Positions 17,750-26,091 of a DNA stretch of 38,781 nucleotides are shown one piece after another. The position numbers and the translations under genes are program-made. The number at the start of each line of letters is the position of its first letter. The first letter of the stretch is position 1. This DNA is from Deltaproteobacteria bacterium (lineage in GTDB: Bacteria > Desulfobacterota > Syntrophia > Syntrophales > JAAYKM01). The stretch covers positions 1 to 38,781 of the forward strand of contig JAAYKM010000078.1 of assembly GCA_012522415.1 (NCBI GenBank). Direction: 5' to 3'. The notes under the pieces were generated by a model. That model was not told where the DNA came from, did no database searches, and saw nothing but the letters and a program-made list of their open reading frames with translations.

Positions 17750-18232
17750 ATGACCCAGCCCCTATCTCACCTAGACGAAAAAGGACAGGCCAAAATGGTC
17801 GATGTGACAACCAAAGAACCGTCTTTAAGAGAAGCCGTTGCAACAGGCCGGGTTCGTATGTTACCTTATACGCTCTCTCTCCTTCAGGAAGGAGGCGTGC
17901 CGAAGGGAGATGTTTTCGGGGTGGCCCGCGTAGCAGGCATCATGGCAGCCAAGAAAACAGGGGACTTGATTCCCATGTGTCACCCCCTGGCGTTGACGCA
18001 TATCGACATCCGCTTTGAAGTCCTGCCGCAGGAGGGAGAGGTGTTGATCGAGAGCCGGGCAAAACTGGTAGGCAAAACGGGTGTCGAAATGGAAGCCCTT
18101 ACCGCCGTGTCTGTGGCCGCACTCACGATCTATGATATGTGCAAAGCCGTCGATAAGGAAATCGTCGTGACGGATATTATGCTTGTAAGGAAGTCCGGCG
18201 GCAAAAGCGGCCTGTTTGAGAGGAATACTTAA
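17750..18232 (+). CDS. moaC: Cyclic pyranopterin monophosphate synthase
   Basis: MoaC converts 3',8-cyclo-7,8-dihydro-GTP (made by MoaA) to cyclic pyranopterin monophosphate in molybdenum cofactor synthesis. The 160-residue length is normal. Catalytic residues known from E. coli MoaC are all present: the MCHPL motif (Cys77, His78), GVEMEA (Glu113, Glu115), and Asp129 and Lys132 in [10 protein letters not shown], plus Lys52 in GVPKGDV. AAGGAGG precedes the ATG at good spacing. moaA is not adjacent here. The cofactor implies molybdenum or tungsten enzymes elsewhere, such as formate dehydrogenase. Confidence 0.97.
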
Positions 18233-18263
18233 TGTTCAGGGCTTGCCCGCAAAGCTGAAACCA

Positions 18264-18788
18264 ATGGATACGCACCGATACAAAATCAAGCGCCCTTTTG
18301 TGATTCCCTTTGTTCTGGCGGTATTTCTTCTCGTGATACTCCTGTTCATGTCCCTTCTTCACCGCCGTTCTGCCGCTGAAACGGTTGTTTTGACAATATT
18401 TTTATGCGCCGCATTGCCGGTTTTAGGCGAGATGTTTTACCGTCTGGTCACAACCAATGCCTCCGGCCTAACGATCAGAAAGTTTCTGAGGACCCGAGCC
18501 ATTCCCTGGGAAAACATCAATCAGGTCGGACTGGTCATGGTAAGGCGGAAGACGTATCTTCTGCTGACGACCCGCAGAGGTTTTTATATACTCTCCAGTG
18601 CCTACGGGGATTTCCCCCGTCTGGTCCGCGATATCACGGACCAGGTCCCATTCGATCGGGTAGATGCTGAGGTCCGTCAACAGTTGGAAGAAGGTCCCCT
18701 CGTCAACCGCGGCGATGTTTTATCCATCTGGCTCGCCGTTATTTTGATGATCGGACTCATTGTGATGAAACTTTTTGGTGTGATCTGA
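18264..18788 (+). CDS. Membrane protein with bacterial PH-like domain
   Basis: A protein of about 174 residues with two N-terminal transmembrane helices (about 13-32 and 39-58), a middle soluble domain and one C-terminal helix (about 150-172). The middle segment, NASGLTIRKFLRTRAIPW followed by hydrophobic strands with RRKTYLLLTTRRGFYIL, reads like the bacterial pleckstrin-homology-like fold found in small membrane proteins. The function is unknown. I start it at ATG 18264; a longer frame from TTG 18216 would overlap moaC by 17 bases, and neither start has a strong ribosome site. It probably shares the moaC transcript. Confidence 0.65.
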   Translation: MDTHRYKIKRPFVIPFVLAVFLLVILLFMSLLHRRSAAETVVLTIFLCAALPVLGEMFYRLVTTNASGLTIRKFLRTRAIPWENINQVGLVMVRRKTYLLLTTRRGFYILSSAYGDFPRLVRDITDQVPFDRVDAEVRQQLEEGPLVNRGDVLSIWLAVILMIGLIVMKLFGVI

Positions 18789-18810
18789 TGACCTGATAAA
18801 GGGATATGTA

Positions 18811-19125
18811 ATGGTCAGGAAGGACAAAGTGATGAAAACGGAAACAGCCAATGCCGCGGAACATGGGGCAGATTCACTCCAGTCCATCATCGAAGACATT
18901 TTGCACAAGGATCTTGAAAATGTCGTAACCATCCTCGAACCCAAGGGAAGCGGAAAAAGCACCCTTTACGAGGATGTGATAAGGATCATCGATCGAAGCC
19001 TGTTCAGAATTGCTTTGAACCGCTCCGGTCAGGTTAAAACCGTTGCCGCTACGTACCTTGGTATCAGTCGCAATACCTTCCAGAAGAAAATGATCAAGAT
19101 GGGAATGGATGGCCGTGAAGATTAG
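18811..19125 (+). CDS. Small Fis-family helix-turn-helix protein
   Basis: A 104-residue protein whose C-terminal half matches the Fis/NtrC-type DNA-binding domain: IALNRSGQVKTVAATYLGIS and NTFQKKM (about residues 68-95) align with the familiar helix-turn-helix of these regulators. There is no AAA+ or receiver domain, so it resembles a stand-alone Fis-like protein. The ATG at 18832 has the better ribosome site (AGGAAGGA) and could be the true start, giving 97 residues. A GSGKST string at about 51-56 looks like a P-loop, but the protein is too small for a P-loop NTPase. What it regulates is unknown. Confidence 0.75.
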   Translation: MVRKDKVMKTETANAAEHGADSLQSIIEDILHKDLENVVTILEPKGSGKSTLYEDVIRIIDRSLFRIALNRSGQVKTVAATYLGISRNTFQKKMIKMGMDGRED

Positions 19126-19205
19126 TTCTCCTGCGTAAGTAGGCAGGACAGGCCGATCGTTTGAATCCTCGCTCTATCTTCCGGGTTCCAGGTTCAGAAA
19201 ATGTC

Positions 19206-20459
19206 ATGAATATATCCGGGCATACAGAATTGCTTCAGAGAAAGGGCGTACTCATCCCGAACCCCACCGCCGTCGACATTGATGCGGAAATTGACCCAGC
19301 GCGCATTTCAGGTGAAGGGGTCGTTTTTTATCCGGGAACCAGGATTTACGGGGCCGACACCGTGATTTCGGCCGGTGTGAAACTTGGCTATGAGGGCCCC
19401 GTCACGATCGAAAACTGTCAGCTGGGATCCCGTGTCCAGCTCAAAGGCGGCTTTTTCAGCACCTCCGTCTTTCTCGATGGGTGTACCATGGACAACGGCG
19501 CCCACGTCCGGCAAGGTTGCCTGTTGGAGGAGGAAACCAGGGCCGGACACACCGTTGGCCTCAAGCAAACAATCCTCTTCCCATTTGTTACGCTGGGAAG
19601 CCTGATCAACTTCTGCGACTGTTTCATGGCCGGGGGTACGGACAGAAAAAATCACAGTGAAGTCGGCAGCAGTTACATCCATTTCAACTACACCCCCCAG
19701 CAAGACAAGGCGACGGCCTCCCTGATCGGTGACGTCCCCCAAGGCGTCATGCTCCGGCAAAAGCCCATTTTCCTAGGCGGCCAGGGGGGGCTGATCGGTC
19801 CAGCCCGAATCGCTTTTGGTACCGTCATCGCTGCGGGTACCATCTTCCGGGGTGACTGTACGGAGGATGGAAAATTCGTCTCTTCCGGTGCAAACAAGGA
19901 TCGACTGACTGCCTACCACCCCGGTCTCTATGTCCATGTCAGCCGTCGTATCCGTATTAACCTGTCCTACATGGCGAACCTGCTCGCCCTGAAACAGTGG
20001 TACATCCATGTCCGGCAGCCTTTTTTTCTTAAGCATGCCCTGGCGGAGACCGTCCATCAGGGAGCATTGAATACGCTGGATGCCGCTCTTCATGAACGGC
20101 TCTTGAGAATGGATGAACTGGCTGAAAAAATGGATGAATCGCTGGCACAGGTTTCACGCCATTTAAAGGGTCAACAGAAAAAACTCGCCCGCGGGGAACA
20201 GGAGGCATTCCGGGATCGCTGGCCTGAGATACGGGGCATTTTCGAAGCAAAGCTTGAAGAATCCCTGGGTGCGGATGACCGGCATCGTTTCCTCACTTGT
20301 GTTGACCAAACGGCAACCCGTCATCAGCATTATCTGGCCATGATAAGGGCCCTGCCTCCCGAAGCAGTCGCCTGTGGAAAAAGATGGCTTGGCAAAATTG
20401 TCACCGGTATCTCCACAAGGGGTGAATCCATTCTGTCGGGGGAAACAGGCGGCCCATGA
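19206..20459 (+). CDS. Left-handed beta-helix acyltransferase-like protein (GlmU C-domain-like)
   Basis: The central part (about residues 25-245) consists of hexapeptide-repeat turns of a left-handed beta helix, for example ISGEGVVFYPGTRIYG and ITIENCQLGSRVQL-like turns. The KNHSEVGSSYIHFNYTP segment recalls the GlmU acetyltransferase active site (His, Tyr and Asn positions), followed by ASLIGDVPQGV. A helical C-terminal region of about 160 residues follows, and there is no nucleotidyltransferase domain. The frame opens upstream at TTG 19161; ATG 19206 is my choice, though its ribosome site is weak. The stop overlaps the start of the GlmS-like gene (ATGA), so the pair is coupled. I infer sugar acyl transfer or nucleotide-sugar metabolism. 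Confidence 0.72.
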   Translation: MNISGHTELLQRKGVLIPNPTAVDIDAEIDPARISGEGVVFYPGTRIYGADTVISAGVKLGYEGPVTIENCQLGSRVQLKGGFFSTSVFLDGCTMDNGAHVRQGCLLEEETRAGHTVGLKQTILFPFVTLGSLINFCDCFMAGGTDRKNHSEVGSSYIHFNYTPQQDKATASLIGDVPQGVMLRQKPIFLGGQGGLIGPARIAFGTVIAAGTIFRGDCTEDGKFVSSGANKDRLTAYHPGLYVHVSRRIRINLSYMANLLALKQWYIHVRQPFFLKHALAETVHQGALNTLDAALHERLLRMDELAEKMDESLAQVSRHLKGQQKKLARGEQEAFRDRWPEIRGIFEAKLEESLGADDRHRFLTCVDQTATRHQHYLAMIRALPPEAVACGKRWLGKIVTGISTRGESILSGETGGP

Positions 20460-23400
20460 ATCTGATGACTAGCTTAGCGGCCTCACTCCGCCGATTCGGG
20501 ACATGGCATTGGTTCGTCGGCGCGAATCCCCACCGCTGTCCGCCGCGCTCCCTGATCCTTTTCCCATATTACCCGGCAACCTTTTTCTGCGGTCTTGCGG
20601 GCATCTTGGTGATCAAAGGGCCAGGCCCTCTTGAAAAAACGGGTATCGTCCGGACATTCATTACGCTTTTCGACGTCGTGAGTTCCTTGCGAATTGCAGA
20701 CATACAGGGCGGTGCCTTAACTCTGGCACGCTATCTGGATGGAGACGCCTCCCTGGAAAAAATGGCCCGTCGAATCCCTGAACTCAAGGGAGATCATGTT
20801 TTCCGCGAACTCACAACGCATCCCGAAACGGCATTCAAACTGGAACGGCTCGCAGGCAATATAAAAGCATATCTTCTTCAGGAAGAAGCCGCGTTGGAGA
20901 AGGCTGCGGCTTTCTTCGATACGCAAATCCTGGAGAAAGTAAACCGGTCTCTGCTTATCCTTCGAGATATCCTCTGGGCACTGGAGAATGACGTCCTGGC
21001 AACCCTCGAACAGATCCAAAACCTGGCCGAAGAGAGCTCCAAGCCGCCAGGAACAGAGTCCCTTCTCAAGTACAAGAGGATAAACTTCCTCCTAAACTGC
21101 ATCAACCGTTTGGAAGTAAGGGGAAGAGACTCCGCTGGCCTCCAGGTCTCCTTCACCCTGCCCGCCGGATCCGTTTTCAGGGAAATTCTCCACCGTCTCA
21201 AGGAAAGGAATCTTTACACTGAATTTTCGGACCGGGTTGATACGGCTGACTTGCTAAACAACTCTATCAGCCTCCCCTGCACCATCACAGACCTTGAATG
21301 TATCCGGGAAGATACGAGCAAAACGATTACCTTCACCTATAAAACCGCCTCGGTCATCGGGGAGTTGGGGCAAAATGTTCGGGAGTTAACGGAATCAATC
21401 CGCGGGGATCATGTCCTCCGGGTGTTTGCCGAAACCGAAATGGCGTGTGAATCGTCCTTCTGCCACACCCGATGGGCCTCTGTCGGTTCCATCTCCGTTG
21501 AGAACTGCCATCCTATCAACAACGCCACCTTAAACGGTCATCCACAGGCGTTAGCGGATAAAAATTATCCCCGTTATGGCCGGGGGAACTGGACGATCAA
21601 TGTGGCCTTAAACGGTGACATCGACAATTACCAGATTCTACGATATCGGCTGGAATCCGGGCATGATCTGATCGCTCCGGAGGTAACAACGGACACAAAA
21701 ATCATCCCCCTTCAGATAGAACATTACCTTATGCAGGGGTGTGACCTCGAGGCGGCTTTCAGGTTGGCGCTGAACGATTTCGAGGGTTCCCACGCCATCG
21801 CGATGGTGAGCAACCTCGAGCCAGGCAAGGTCTTCCTGGCGTTACGAGGCAGCGGCCAGGCCCTGTACATCGGATTAGCCGACGATCAATATCTATTCTC
21901 TTCGGAGCTTTACGGCTTGGTAGAGCGGACCCCTTTCTTCATCAAAATCAACGGGGAAATGCCGGCCGATCCAGCTCGCCCGGAAACCACTGGACAGATG
22001 TTCATCCTGGACCAGGAAAGCACTGGGGGGTTGAATGGCATCGCCGCCTGTTTCTATGACGGCAAAACCCTGCTACTTGCCCCGGAAGATATTCAAAAAG
22101 CGGAAATCACAACCCGGGACATCGACAGGGGTGACTTCAGACATTATTTTCTCAAGGAGATCTCCGAATCAGCACAATCCGTCCGGAAAACTCTCCTGGG
22201 AAAATACCGAATTATCCAGGAAGAAAACGGAGGGAACCGGGTCTTTTTCAACCTGGGGCAGGACGTGCTGCCCGATAAAATCCGAAACGAGATCACCCAC
22301 CGTCGAATACGCCGCGTCATCGTCATCGGTCACGGCACAGCGGCAGTCGCTGGACAGGCCATCGGCGACGCTCTGAACCGTTTCCTCAAGGGTACTAACC
22401 TCCTTGCGGAAGCGAATTTAGCCTCCGAACTGAGCGGTTTTTCCCTTAGTCAAGATCTTTCGGATACCCTCATTATCCCGATTACACAATCAGGCACCAC
22501 GACGGATACCAACCGTGCCGTAGCCATGGCCCGAGATCGGGGTGCGTCGGTTATCGCCATTGTCAACCGCCGACAGTCCGACATCACGACCAAAACGGAT
22601 GGTGTTTTCTACACCAGCGACGGCCGGGATATCGAAATGTCCGTGGCTTCAACGAAGGCCTTCTATTCCCAGATTATCGCCGGGCACCTCCTGGCTCTGT
22701 TTTTCGCCCAGATCACGGATGCTCTCACAGATGATGAAATAGCAGGGGAACTACGCGTGCTTGAAAAGGTGCCCCAGTTCATAAATCGTGTTCTTGAACA
22801 GCAAGAGACGATCCGCAAAGCTGCACAGCAGGTTCCACGCCAGAAGAGCCACTGGGCTATCGTCGGGAGCGGACCCAACAAGGCAGCCGCTGATGAAATC
22901 CGTATCAAGTTAAGCGAACTCTGTTACAAAACCATTTCTTCCGACATCGTGGAAAACAAAAAACATATTGACCTGTCAGCGGAGCCCCTCATCATAGTCT
23001 GCGGCGCCGGCAATCCGGAAACCGTCGTCGGGGATATCGTGAAAGATGTTGCCATCTTCAAGGCCCATAAGGCTGGCGTCGTCGTTTTCACCGACGAGGG
23101 TGAAACCCGTTTCGACGATCTGGCTGATGCCGTCATCAAATTGCCTAAAGGTTCCGCCCCCCTGCCGGTTATATCAAATACGGTGGCAGGACATTTATTT
23201 GGCTATTATGCCGCCCTGGGCATCGATGAGGACGCCATGTTTCTACGCCGGTTCCGCAGCGAACTCAACAGGCGGATGATCGAACAGGACAAGCAGCACT
23301 GGTCAATTTACGAACGGATCGCCGACCGGGAATTCCGCAAATTGATTCGGGACTTTTCCAGGCGTTTCCACGAAAGACGCAACCAGGGCGCGTTTCATTC

Positions 23401-24244
23401 CGCCAGCGCCAAGACCATTTCCGATATCGTTCTTCTGCTGAAATACACCGTCGGTCGTCTGCCTCTCGAGGATTATGCCTATGATTTCAAAGGGCAAGAT
23501 GACCTCCTTTCTCCCATTGATTTCCTGGATGTTTCCCTAGGCAATGCCATTGATGAACTATCCCGCCCCGTGGACGCAATCCGTCATCAGGCCAAGACGG
23601 TTACTGTCGGTACGAGCCGGAAAGAACAACCACTACACGGCATCCTCTTCGACTTGCTCAAGGAACTGGCCTTTTCCGACCGGACCCTGGCAAGCAAGAA
23701 TATACTCGACATCGATCGTCTGCAACCTGCCGTCGCCGAAATCCGGGGTTACACCCTCTACCTGATCTCTGCCCTGAAAACGGAAGGCAATCCGACGGAA
23801 GAAACGACCATTTCCATTGCAAAACGGAGTGGTGTATCCCTCCAGATGTCATCGAGGGTGGAAAAATCCGGGCGACTCATGGGTACAAAAAGGACCATCG
23901 TCAATACGGGGCATCTCTATATCGGCTGCGGTAAATCCGACGGGGCTCCCCTCATCGTGATTCCGCTCAAAAAGGGAGGGGACCTGATCAGCCATCTGTT
24001 GCTCATCCATGTTCGATTCAACGAACGGATCACTCTGAGAGAACGCATCGCCGCCATGGGCGTCCGGTATAATGATCTCAAGAACCTGATCAATGAATAC
24101 AACCTGCTCTGGATGGACCGGTACCTGCTGCAGATCCCTCTGGAGACCCTCTTGGGTGAACCGGTTGAAATCATTGCAGGCCAGATCAAGCTGGCCCTGG
24201 CTGACCATCCGAATACGAACAGCGGGCTGAACAGGGACTTATGA
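20456..24244 (+). CDS. Giant GlmS-like protein: split class II amidotransferase, two SIS domains, C-terminal extension
   Basis: The 1262-residue protein contains recognisable pieces of glucosamine-6-phosphate synthase. Cys45 in FFCGLAGILV matches the N-terminal nucleophile. LEVRGRDSAG (219-228), RWASVG (339-344) and NGDIDNY (386-392) match amidotransferase motifs. SIS1 spans about 618-750, with TQSGTTTDT (687-695) and ASTKAFYSQ (731-739), and SIS2 about 798-925. Differences from GlmS: 44 residues precede the cysteine, about 145 residues are inserted between the cysteine strand and the RGRDSAG helix, the C-terminal PRNLAKSVTVE tail is absent, and about 330 residues with no recognised domain follow. 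It could form an amino-sugar phosphate or regulate its formation; the product is uncertain. Confidence 0.82.
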   Translation: MNLMTSLAASLRRFGTWHWFVGANPHRCPPRSLILFPYYPATFFCGLAGILVIKGPGPLEKTGIVRTFITLFDVVSSLRIADIQGGALTLARYLDGDASLEKMARRIPELKGDHVFRELTTHPETAFKLERLAGNIKAYLLQEEAALEKAAAFFDTQILEKVNRSLLILRDILWALENDVLATLEQIQNLAEESSKPPGTESLLKYKRINFLLNCINRLEVRGRDSAGLQVSFTLPAGSVFREILHRLKERNLYTEFSDRVDTADLLNNSISLPCTITDLECIREDTSKTITFTYKTASVIGELGQNVRELTESIRGDHVLRVFAETEMACESSFCHTRWASVGSISVENCHPINNATLNGHPQALADKNYPRYGRGNWTINVALNGDIDNYQILRYRLESGHDLIAPEVTTDTKIIPLQIEHYLMQGCDLEAAFRLALNDFEGSHAIAMVSNLEPGKVFLALRGSGQALYIGLADDQYLFSSELYGLVERTPFFIKINGEMPADPARPETTGQMFILDQESTGGLNGIAACFYDGKTLLLAPEDIQKAEITTRDIDRGDFRHYFLKEISESAQSVRKTLLGKYRIIQEENGGNRVFFNLGQDVLPDKIRNEITHRRIRRVIVIGHGTAAVAGQAIGDALNRFLKGTNLLAEANLASELSGFSLSQDLSDTLIIPITQSGTTTDTNRAVAMARDRGASVIAIVNRRQSDITTKTDGVFYTSDGRDIEMSVASTKAFYSQIIAGHLLALFFAQITDALTDDEIAGELRVLEKVPQFINRVLEQQETIRKAAQQVPRQKSHWAIVGSGPNKAAADEIRIKLSELCYKTISSDIVENKKHIDLSAEPLIIVCGAGNPETVVGDIVKDVAIFKAHKAGVVVFTDEGETRFDDLADAVIKLPKGSAPLPVISNTVAGHLFGYYAALGIDEDAMFLRRFRSELNRRMIEQDKQHWSIYERIADREFRKLIRDFSRRFHERRNQGAFHSASAKTISDIVLLLKYTVGRLPLEDYAYDFKGQDDLLSPIDFLDVSLGNAIDELSRPVDAIRHQAKTVTVGTSRKEQPLHGILFDLLKELAFSDRTLASKNILDIDRLQPAVAEIRGYTLYLISALKTEGNPTEETTISIAKRSGVSLQMSSRVEKSGRLMGTKRTIVNTGHLYIGCGKSDGAPLIVIPLKKGGDLISHLLLIHVRFNERITLRERIAAMGVRYNDLKNLINEYNLLWMDRYLLQIPLETLLGEPVEIIAGQIKLALADHPNTNSGLNRDL

Positions 24245-24432: not shown

Positions 24433-26091
24433 ATGGACGGATTCGTACCCTGGCCTGGATCATTCAGGGAACAATATTTAAAGGCCCGTTATTGGCGGGA
24501 AAAACCTCTCGCATCGATCATCGAAACTGCGGCAGCCCGTTGGCCCCGGCGTATTGCCATCACCTTCAACGGCCAGGGTATCACATACGCAGAACTGCAA
24601 CGCAGGGTCAATCGTCTGGCGTTGCACCTGGGAAAACTCGGACATCGGCCCCTGGATCGCCTGCTCCTCCAACTGCCCAATTGTCCGGAAACCCTTTACC
24701 TGTATTTTGCCGCTGTGAAAATCGGCGTCATCCCCGTTATGGCCCTACCAGCCCACCGGTTGGCGGAAATGGCCTTTTTTGCCGAATTCGCTGCGGTGAA
24801 AAGCTATTGCATCCCCGGCCTCTTCGGAAAGTTCGATTACCCTGCTCTGGCAAGGGAAGTCCGCATGAGGGCGCCAAGTCTAAAACATATCATCGTCCAT
24901 GCCGATCAGGTTCCGGACGGCATGATTTCCCTCCAGAAATTACTGGACGACCCCCTGGAAGAACGGGTCAACGGAGAAACGATATTTGCAGTCCTGAAAC
25001 CCGACCCCTTTGAACCGGCGGTGTTTCAGCTATCGGGTGGAACCACGGGCATCCCGAAACTGATCCCAAGGACCCACAACGACTACTACTACAACGTATA
25101 CCGGAACAGTGAGATATGCGGATTCTCCGGGGATACGGTTTATCTTGTCGCCATCCCCATGACCCACAACTTCGCCACCGCCTGCCCGGGCTGGCAGGGG
25201 GTGTTCCTGCACGGCGGCCGGGTTGTTTTGTCCCCCTCCCCTTCCCCCGATACAATTTTTCCCCTGATTGAAAGAGAGAAAGTGACGACGATTCCTGCCG
25301 TACCCGCTATCGTCATCAATATGTTGAATCATCCGGACCGGGGGCGATACGATCTGTCGTCGCTCCAAATGTTGCACGTCGGCGGTTCGAAACTGAACGA
25401 GGAAACAGCCCGGCGAATTCGCAGTGAACTCGGGGCGGGGGTACAACAGGTTTTGGGCATGGCGGAAGGGCCCCTATTCTGGACCCGACCGGACGACCCG
25501 GAAGAAATCAGCTGGATTACCCAGGGGAGACCTCTTTCTCCTGGGGACGAATTCCGAATCGTTGACGCGGGAGACAGGGACGTCAAGCCGGGTGAAATCG
25601 GTGAACTCATCTGCCGCGGTCCTTATACGATCCGGGGGTACTACAAGGCCCCGACACATAACAGGGAAGCTTTCAGCGAAGACGGATTCTATCGCTCAGG
25701 CGATCTCTGCCGCCTCCATGAAAGTGGTAACATTGTTGTGGAAGGACGGAGTAAGGACACAATCAACCGCGGGGGTGAAAAAATCAGTGCAGAAGAGATG
25801 GAAAACCACATTCTTGCTCACCCCAAGGTTCGGCTGTGCGCATATGTGGCCATGCCCGACCCTGTTTTGGGCGAACGGGCAGTCCTTTTTGCCGTTACCC
25901 GGGAAGGACAGACGTTCAACATGGAAGAACTGAGCACATTCCTTTTGACGGAGCGCCGGATTGCCCGTTACAAATTGCCTGAACGGTTGGAAATTCTGGA
26001 CGAAATGCCTCTGACACCTGTCGGCAAGGTAGATAAAGCCCGACTCCGGGAATGGATTGCGAAAAAACTGGAAACTGAAAATCGAAAATAG
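24433..26091 (+). CDS. Aryl-acid adenylating enzyme of the EntE/DhbE/YbtE family
   Basis: The 552-residue protein follows EntE along its length, from WPGSFREQYLKARYW at the N-terminus to GKVDK at the C-terminus (catalytic Lys532). The AMP-binding P-loop SGGTTGIPK is at 201-209, PRTHNDYYY at 212-220, GMAEG at 342-346, and the hinge/loop VVEGRSKDTINRGGEK at 435-450. Such enzymes activate 2,3-dihydroxybenzoate or salicylate as the acyl-AMP for a carrier protein or CoA. The pocket residues (Asn246, Phe247, Cys251, Leu348) look salicylate-type. No isochorismate gene, carrier or peptide synthetase is adjacent. AAGGAG lies 11 bases from the ATG. A CoA-ligase role in aromatic acid metabolism is an alternative. 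Confidence 0.88.
   Translation: MDGFVPWPGSFREQYLKARYWREKPLASIIETAAARWPRRIAITFNGQGITYAELQRRVNRLALHLGKLGHRPLDRLLLQLPNCPETLYLYFAAVKIGVIPVMALPAHRLAEMAFFAEFAAVKSYCIPGLFGKFDYPALAREVRMRAPSLKHIIVHADQVPDGMISLQKLLDDPLEERVNGETIFAVLKPDPFEPAVFQLSGGTTGIPKLIPRTHNDYYYNVYRNSEICGFSGDTVYLVAIPMTHNFATACPGWQGVFLHGGRVVLSPSPSPDTIFPLIEREKVTTIPAVPAIVINMLNHPDRGRYDLSSLQMLHVGGSKLNEETARRIRSELGAGVQQVLGMAEGPLFWTRPDDPEEISWITQGRPLSPGDEFRIVDAGDRDVKPGEIGELICRGPYTIRGYYKAPTHNREAFSEDGFYRSGDLCRLHESGNIVVEGRSKDTINRGGEKISAEEMENHILAHPKVRLCAYVAMPDPVLGERAVLFAVTREGQTFNMEELSTFLLTERRIARYKLPERLEILDEMPLTPVGKVDKARLREWIAKKLETENRK

Follow-up and report, generated by a model that had tools for sequence, protein, structure and literature searches.

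Of the amino sugars of the cell wall, glucosamine-6-phosphate is made first, and GlmS catalyses the first step towards UDP-GlcNAc; it is an essential enzyme whose architecture has been much studied. In the stretch of DNA analysed here (38,781 nucleotides, hereafter the window), a real forward-strand open reading frame encodes a GlmS-like product of 1262 aa, against 609 aa in E. coli GlmS. A preliminary description of this giant had noted unusual insertions, a glutaminase that might be inactive, a lost catalytic tail and about 330 unassigned residues at the end. The question raised by the locus is whether such a protein can be a working GlmS. Our computational inference is that the giant is, with high likelihood, the organism's glucosamine-6-phosphate synthase and represents a divergent, monophyletic GlmS class. 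The features on which this reading rests are collected in Table 1.

Table 1. Features of the giant GlmS gene and of the gene upstream of it, in window coordinates
Feature	Position	Strand	Basis
Upstream gene, left-handed beta-helix protein resembling the GlmU acetyltransferase half	19161..20459	+	Overlaps the start of the giant
Giant GlmS, whole gene	20456..24244	+	ORF of 1262 aa
Leader, residues 1-44, probable propeptide	20456..20587	+	Conserved in 89 giants; cleavage inferred
Cys45, glutaminase nucleophile (GlmS Cys1)	20588..20590	+	98/98 giants
Insertion 1, residues 57-206, about 150 aa	20624..21073	+	Helical in model; no Pfam/PDB match
RGRDSAG motif (GlmS R26 region)	21119..21139	+	R222 = R26 in 98/98
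Insertion 2, residues 236-330, about 95 aa, less conserved	21161..21445	+	Alignment with E. coli GlmS
Glutaminase site: HTRWAS, LNG (N386, G387), D413	21464..21694	+	R73, W74, N98, G99, D123 equivalents in 98/98
SIS1 domain	22307..22699	+	PF01380
SIS2 domain with Glu821 (E488) and His837 (H504)	22841..23188	+	Weak PF01380 match; residues in 98/98
Insertion 3, residues 922-1036, helical, separates tail from SIS2	23219..23563	+	Model, spacing
Displaced catalytic tail RPVDAIRHQAKTVTVGTSR, Lys1047 = GlmS Lys603	23564..23620	+	Alignment, tail-matrix scan
C-terminal domain, residues 1056-1246, tentative sensor-like fold	23621..24193	+	AlphaFold, weak Foldseek matches

HMM searches located a GATase_6 glutaminase at residues 334-484 and a SIS domain at residues 618-748, followed by a second, weaker SIS stretch, bearing out the description of the protein as a GlmS-like giant. 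The order of glutaminase and double SIS, the catalytic residues and the AKxVTV tail motif are the same as in E. coli GlmS and TIGR01135, whereas the leader, three insertions, internal tail and 200-aa C-terminal domain are the giant's own. GlmS models aligned with the giant from profile position 57 to 585-593 at 230-252 bits, against curated cut-offs of 418 and 381 bits. Because the score for TIGR01135 was 230 bits (cut-off 418), the giant falls outside that family, and we filed it as a divergent sister class predicted to work like GlmS. The giants formed one clade in a FastTree phylogeny (support 0.74), with a stem branch as long as 1.9 substitutions per site; this very long stem, together with scores far below the cut-offs, leaves an altered specificity conceivable from sequence. 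AlphaFold modelling of residues 45-1244 (pLDDT 82.5, pTM 0.71) gave a core that matched GFAT-1 and GlmS in Foldseek searches, with a TMt of about 0.84 to isomerase domains. Human GFAT-1, likewise an insertion-bearing GlmS relative, was the best Foldseek and phmmer match over this core, but the giant's insertions are placed elsewhere than those of GFAT-1 and match nothing in the GFAT sequence.

To compare active sites we took residue equivalences from a joint alignment of 98 giants with canonical GlmS, and assigned the numbered catalytic residues the roles that we take them to have from general knowledge of GlmS. The glutaminase residues Cys1, R26, R73, W74, H86, N98, G99 and D123 were unchanged in all 98 giants, as were G301, T302, Q348, S349, T352, V399 and S401 and, further along, E481, K485, E488, H504, A602 and K603; the R599 position is Arg or Lys. 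Every giant thus carries the set by which we recognised a class II glutaminase (Cys1, R73, N98, G99, D123). The tandem-SIS set (E488, H504 and the P-site residues) is present at most positions, with Ala at S303 and mostly Thr at S347, and the Schiff-base lysine (K603) is represented by Lys1047, though in a tail that is internal. T76 is replaced by Ser, C300 by His or Gln and H97 by Leu. We counted the changes at S303, T76 and C300 against GlmS function. The preliminary description had observed that ENKKHID stands in place of the ELKHGP loop of SIS2. This is correct, but the ring-opening His is still present, aligned with His504 in 98/98 giants. As judged from the alignment, neither half lacks a catalytic residue, and the complete set is spread over a protein of twice the usual size.

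The catalytic tail that had been described as lost is displaced. The GlmS tail PRNLAK(603)SVTVE corresponds to IRHQAK(1047)TVTVG in the giant, about 110 residues further along, and when 67 giants are aligned with E. coli GlmS, the segment AKSVTVE falls on AKTVTVG inside IRHQAKTVTVGTSR (residues 1042-1055 of the window protein). HQAKTVTVG is identical in all 98 giant homologues, and the invariant columns among 37 diverse giants are R1037, P1038, D1040, I1042 and H1044-R1055, with R1043 nearly so. A scoring matrix built from 21 canonical GlmS tails had its top match at the IRHQAKTVTVGTSR site in each of the 98 giants; the window protein scored 12.3 bits, against no more than 7.7 for 1960 shuffled sequences. 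Some giants score down to 4.8 bits, so for these it is the shared position and the alignment, not the score, that identify the site. In the same phylum, a canonical GlmS (L189) has KPRNLAKTVTVG as its own C-terminus. The tail scan ruled out that the isomerase lysine is lost, since Lys1047 is the K603 equivalent throughout the 98 giants. The stretch of 330 residues taken to be unassigned contains the catalytic tail, and about 200 residues lie C-terminal of it. The His504 loop and the tail are typically about 210 residues apart in giants and 190 in the forms from family f74, against 98-101 in canonical GlmS, and thus about 110 residues are inserted between the end of SIS2 and the tail. AlphaFold confidence is low at the tail (model residues 1002-1014, window residues 1046-1058), as would be expected of a mobile tail, though this is no proof of mobility.

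Cys45 is internal, as first described, with no Met adjacent to it, and either a cleaved propeptide or a lost glutaminase had been proposed; the comparison of giants favors the former. About 44 residues precede the Cys in 89 giants, with Pro at -8 in 89/89 and Gly at -23 in 84. This leader is absent in L011/L012, in L162 and in four giants of family f74 (L158-L161), in which the ORF begins with Met-Cys or with GTG and then Cys; several of the leader-free giants show a ribosome-binding-like sequence upstream of the start. As L011/L012 and L162 are nested in leader-bearing clades of the tree, the leader was apparently lost at least twice while the Cys stayed in place. Met-Cys starts in three lineages, two of them nested, make a removable propeptide the most likely identity of the leader, and we consider its removal by cleavage probable. 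That the glutaminase is lost, with Cys45 internal and the isomerase half running on free NH3, would agree with the presence of a leader in most giants and with anaerobic habitats, whose richness in ammonia makes free NH3 plausible. We judge this very improbable, given that none of the 98 giants departs from Cys45 or from the glutamine-site residues, and that the leader-free versions, of which two branch within leader-bearing giants, begin with Met-Cys. A propeptide also has a precedent, which further argues against loss: in PurF-type amidotransferases (B. subtilis, plant GPRAT), likewise class II glutaminases with a leader, a propeptide is cleaved off ahead of the catalytic Cys (PMC7056826), although the PurF synthase half is a phosphoribosyltransferase rather than SIS and the leaders are unrelated in sequence.

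The long insertion reported to follow the Cys strand and precede the RGRDSAG helix was confirmed: 158-190 residues separate the Cys from RGxDSAG in the 98 giants, against 25 for canonical GlmS. Insertion 2, also in the glutaminase half, had been overlooked. Insertions 1 and 3 are helical in the AlphaFold model. A Pfam search of the inserted regions and the C-terminal domain yielded no recurring family, and profile searches of the PDB gave no match to the C-terminal domain and, with the inserted regions, only GlmS/SIS proteins. Modelled alone, the C-terminal domain (1053-1249) reached a pLDDT of 91.9. Its Foldseek matches were mainly to Cache, PAS/LOV and GAF folds; they are weak (best E 5e-3, none at 1e-3) and have low TM-scores, so we put forward a ligand-sensing, regulatory role as a hypothesis, and call this domain of about 200 aa sensory only tentatively. 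Regulation of amino-sugar flux, an earlier suggestion, may operate through the extra domains.

In the mechanism that we propose, removal of the 44-residue leader would make Cys45 the N-terminal nucleophile. Cys45 would release NH3 from glutamine, and the NH3 would pass to the SIS1/SIS2 isomerase site, where Lys1047 would hold fructose-6-phosphate, Glu821 would serve as the base and His837 would open the ring. The C-terminal domain would most likely regulate the enzyme through metabolite sensing. It is conceivable, though less likely than not, that across the lineage the tail was moved onto an inserted helical module and tied to the appended sensor-like domain, with a metabolite or a partner protein, namely the detached acetyltransferase, controlling closure of the active site. 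If true, this would be a control of cell-wall precursors unlike the glmS ribozyme or known GFAT control; in human GFAT-1, UDP-GlcNAc feedback acts in the isomerase domain (PMC7000685). An Rfam scan of the window at gathering thresholds found no glmS ribozyme and no other family.

The genomic distribution bears on what the giant makes. Profile searches of the source genome, which is 98.9% complete, found no NagB, no other double-SIS protein and no other GlmS, while GlmM and MurA are present. A second GlmS elsewhere, and NagB-II or NagB as another source of glucosamine-6-phosphate, were thereby rejected for this genome. NagB-II (SIS-type GlcN-6-P deaminase, NF046059) shares SIS domains with the giant (E 5.6e-16, residues 608-823) but is without a glutaminase half, and the giant scores 59 bits against its cut-off of 430. 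The giant is very probably the only enzyme with which this bacterium makes glucosamine-6-phosphate. Among 80 genomes of the order Syntrophales none has a GlmS over the cut-off, and the giant was matched in 56 of 60 relatives, with near-complete matches in other genera at 47-60% identity; by this comparison its conservation across the order is far beyond chance. Named records with the giant include Syntrophaceae, Smithella, Syntrophus and related MAGs. TGA codons in relatives were considered as selenocysteine, but at the six loci examined each was a normal terminator that the alignment had overrun.

Within our phylum sample of 395 genomes, to which statements of breadth apply, the giant occurs in fourteen further families (f50, f52, f54, f67 with one genome, f68, f74, f75, f80, f85, f87, f96, f101, f106 and f114). 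Outside the order it was found in 36 of the 39 genomes checked, only one of which (G262) also has a canonical GlmS, and two genomes of giant-bearing families (G449, G418) have canonical GlmS without the giant. In these genomes and those of the order, giant and ordinary GlmS hardly ever occur together, the pattern expected if one GlmS replaced another.

GlmS function is thus supported by the catalytic set in 98/98 giants, by the GlmS/GFAT fold and by a genome that has GlmM and MurA and no other GlmS or NagB. The preliminary description had suggested a different amino sugar, and had held that the lack of a second, ordinary glmS, together with complementation of a glmS mutant by the giant, would speak against its reading; as far as can be computed, a second gene is lacking, and another product need not be invoked. 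A GlmS-derived enzyme aminating another keto-sugar phosphate would account for the strong divergence, the long stem and the phosphate-site changes (S303A, mostly S347T). It would also leave a genome with GlmM and MurA without a source of glucosamine-6-phosphate, and it fits poorly with the swap of giant and ordinary GlmS between related genomes and with canonical GlmS that show Ala at 303 (two) or Thr at 347 (one). We regard it as most unlikely.

The giant class, read as a GlmS, replaces the ordinary enzyme across Syntrophales and the fourteen further families. Standard annotation can easily overlook it or describe it wrongly, since it scores under the curated cut-off and a visual reading suggests that the tail is gone; the literature that we searched, outside subscription sources, contained no description of it. 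It offers a direct system for learning how a catalytic tail can shift from the C-terminus to an internal position, and for studying what controls the supply of cell-wall precursors in syntrophic anaerobes.

Nine genomes of the order (G003, G048, G088, G068, G006, G007, G019, G050, G090) and one outside it (G324) have neither a full giant nor a canonical GlmS. Unless there are assembly gaps, which may lie behind some of these cases, the nine indicate that the giant is not indispensable everywhere. All nine keep the upstream acetyltransferase-like gene, and MurA is over its cut-off in all ten except G068. In genus g2, remnants of the giant lie between pyrG and purQ, neighbors that we identified by reading ORFs (L119:3113-3747 in G048, L120:4027-4236 in G003), and by sequence this is gene loss that left the ends behind. 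Extra SIS proteins of this genus were considered as GlmS substitutes, but on inspection their ORFs read as RpiR-type regulators. In G049 we also observed a second, partial copy of the giant (L122:2197-2739), decayed and with internal stops, near the intact copy and beside a NagB-like gene.

A divergent NagB-like protein (PF01182) is present in 7 of the 10 giant-less genomes, two of which, G003 and G088, carry it in partial form; G068 encodes a NagB that passes the cut-off. This protein may provide an alternative route to glucosamine-6-phosphate. The NagB of Akkermansia aminates fructose-6-phosphate poorly, and that organism needs GlcNAc (PMC5902328). The NagB-like protein has about 317-329 aa (L203:2152-3138, L204:8269-9219, L045:12549-13490, L176:145-1092), and its gene clusters with the acetyltransferase-like gene and often also with the giant, the latter at L010, L045, L050, L074, L083, L085 and L176.

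The upstream gene overlaps the giant by ATGA. Over residues 23-241, its product matched the GlmU acetyltransferase model with E 2.2e-11, a score short of the cut-off. Pairwise alignment with GlmU, in which we presume the usual roles for the residues compared, showed the Arg, Lys and NY positions kept and Ser at the position of the catalytic His, so that acetyltransferase activity is not certain. GlmU appears to be split in the source genome (G000): the sole other piece is the uridylyltransferase half, free on another contig as a 277-aa ORF (C33, L181:680-1513, minus strand). Across 60 genomes, the upstream gene occurs without full-length GlmU in 39, both occur in 2, GlmU only in 12 and neither in 7 (Fisher p 2e-6, with genomes treated as unrelated); for eight of the 60, gene presence was read from separate locus and genome searches. 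The coupled gene would supply the acetyltransferase step absent from the split GlmU.

Besides its GlmS role the giant might form a complex with this partner, its extra domains being a docking surface and not a sensor. The overlap in the window, adjacency in most Syntrophales loci and the tendency of the partner to occur where full-length GlmU is absent are in keeping with such a complex. In other families, however, the partner is mostly not adjacent to the giant, family f74 has the giant and full-length GlmU with no such partner, and the partner gene is also found in genomes with canonical GlmS (G155, G306, G460); we hold the complex to be rather unlikely. In the window, three small genes (17750-19125), coding for a MoaC family, a PH-domain and a Fis-type HTH protein, directly precede the acetyltransferase-like gene and share its orientation, and G007 (L121) has a similar set ahead of its truncated giant. 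On the other side of the giant in the window, immediately downstream, 24433-26091 encodes an AMP-binding enzyme that scores 594 bits as a 2,3-dihydroxybenzoyl-adenylate synthase (cut-off 724).
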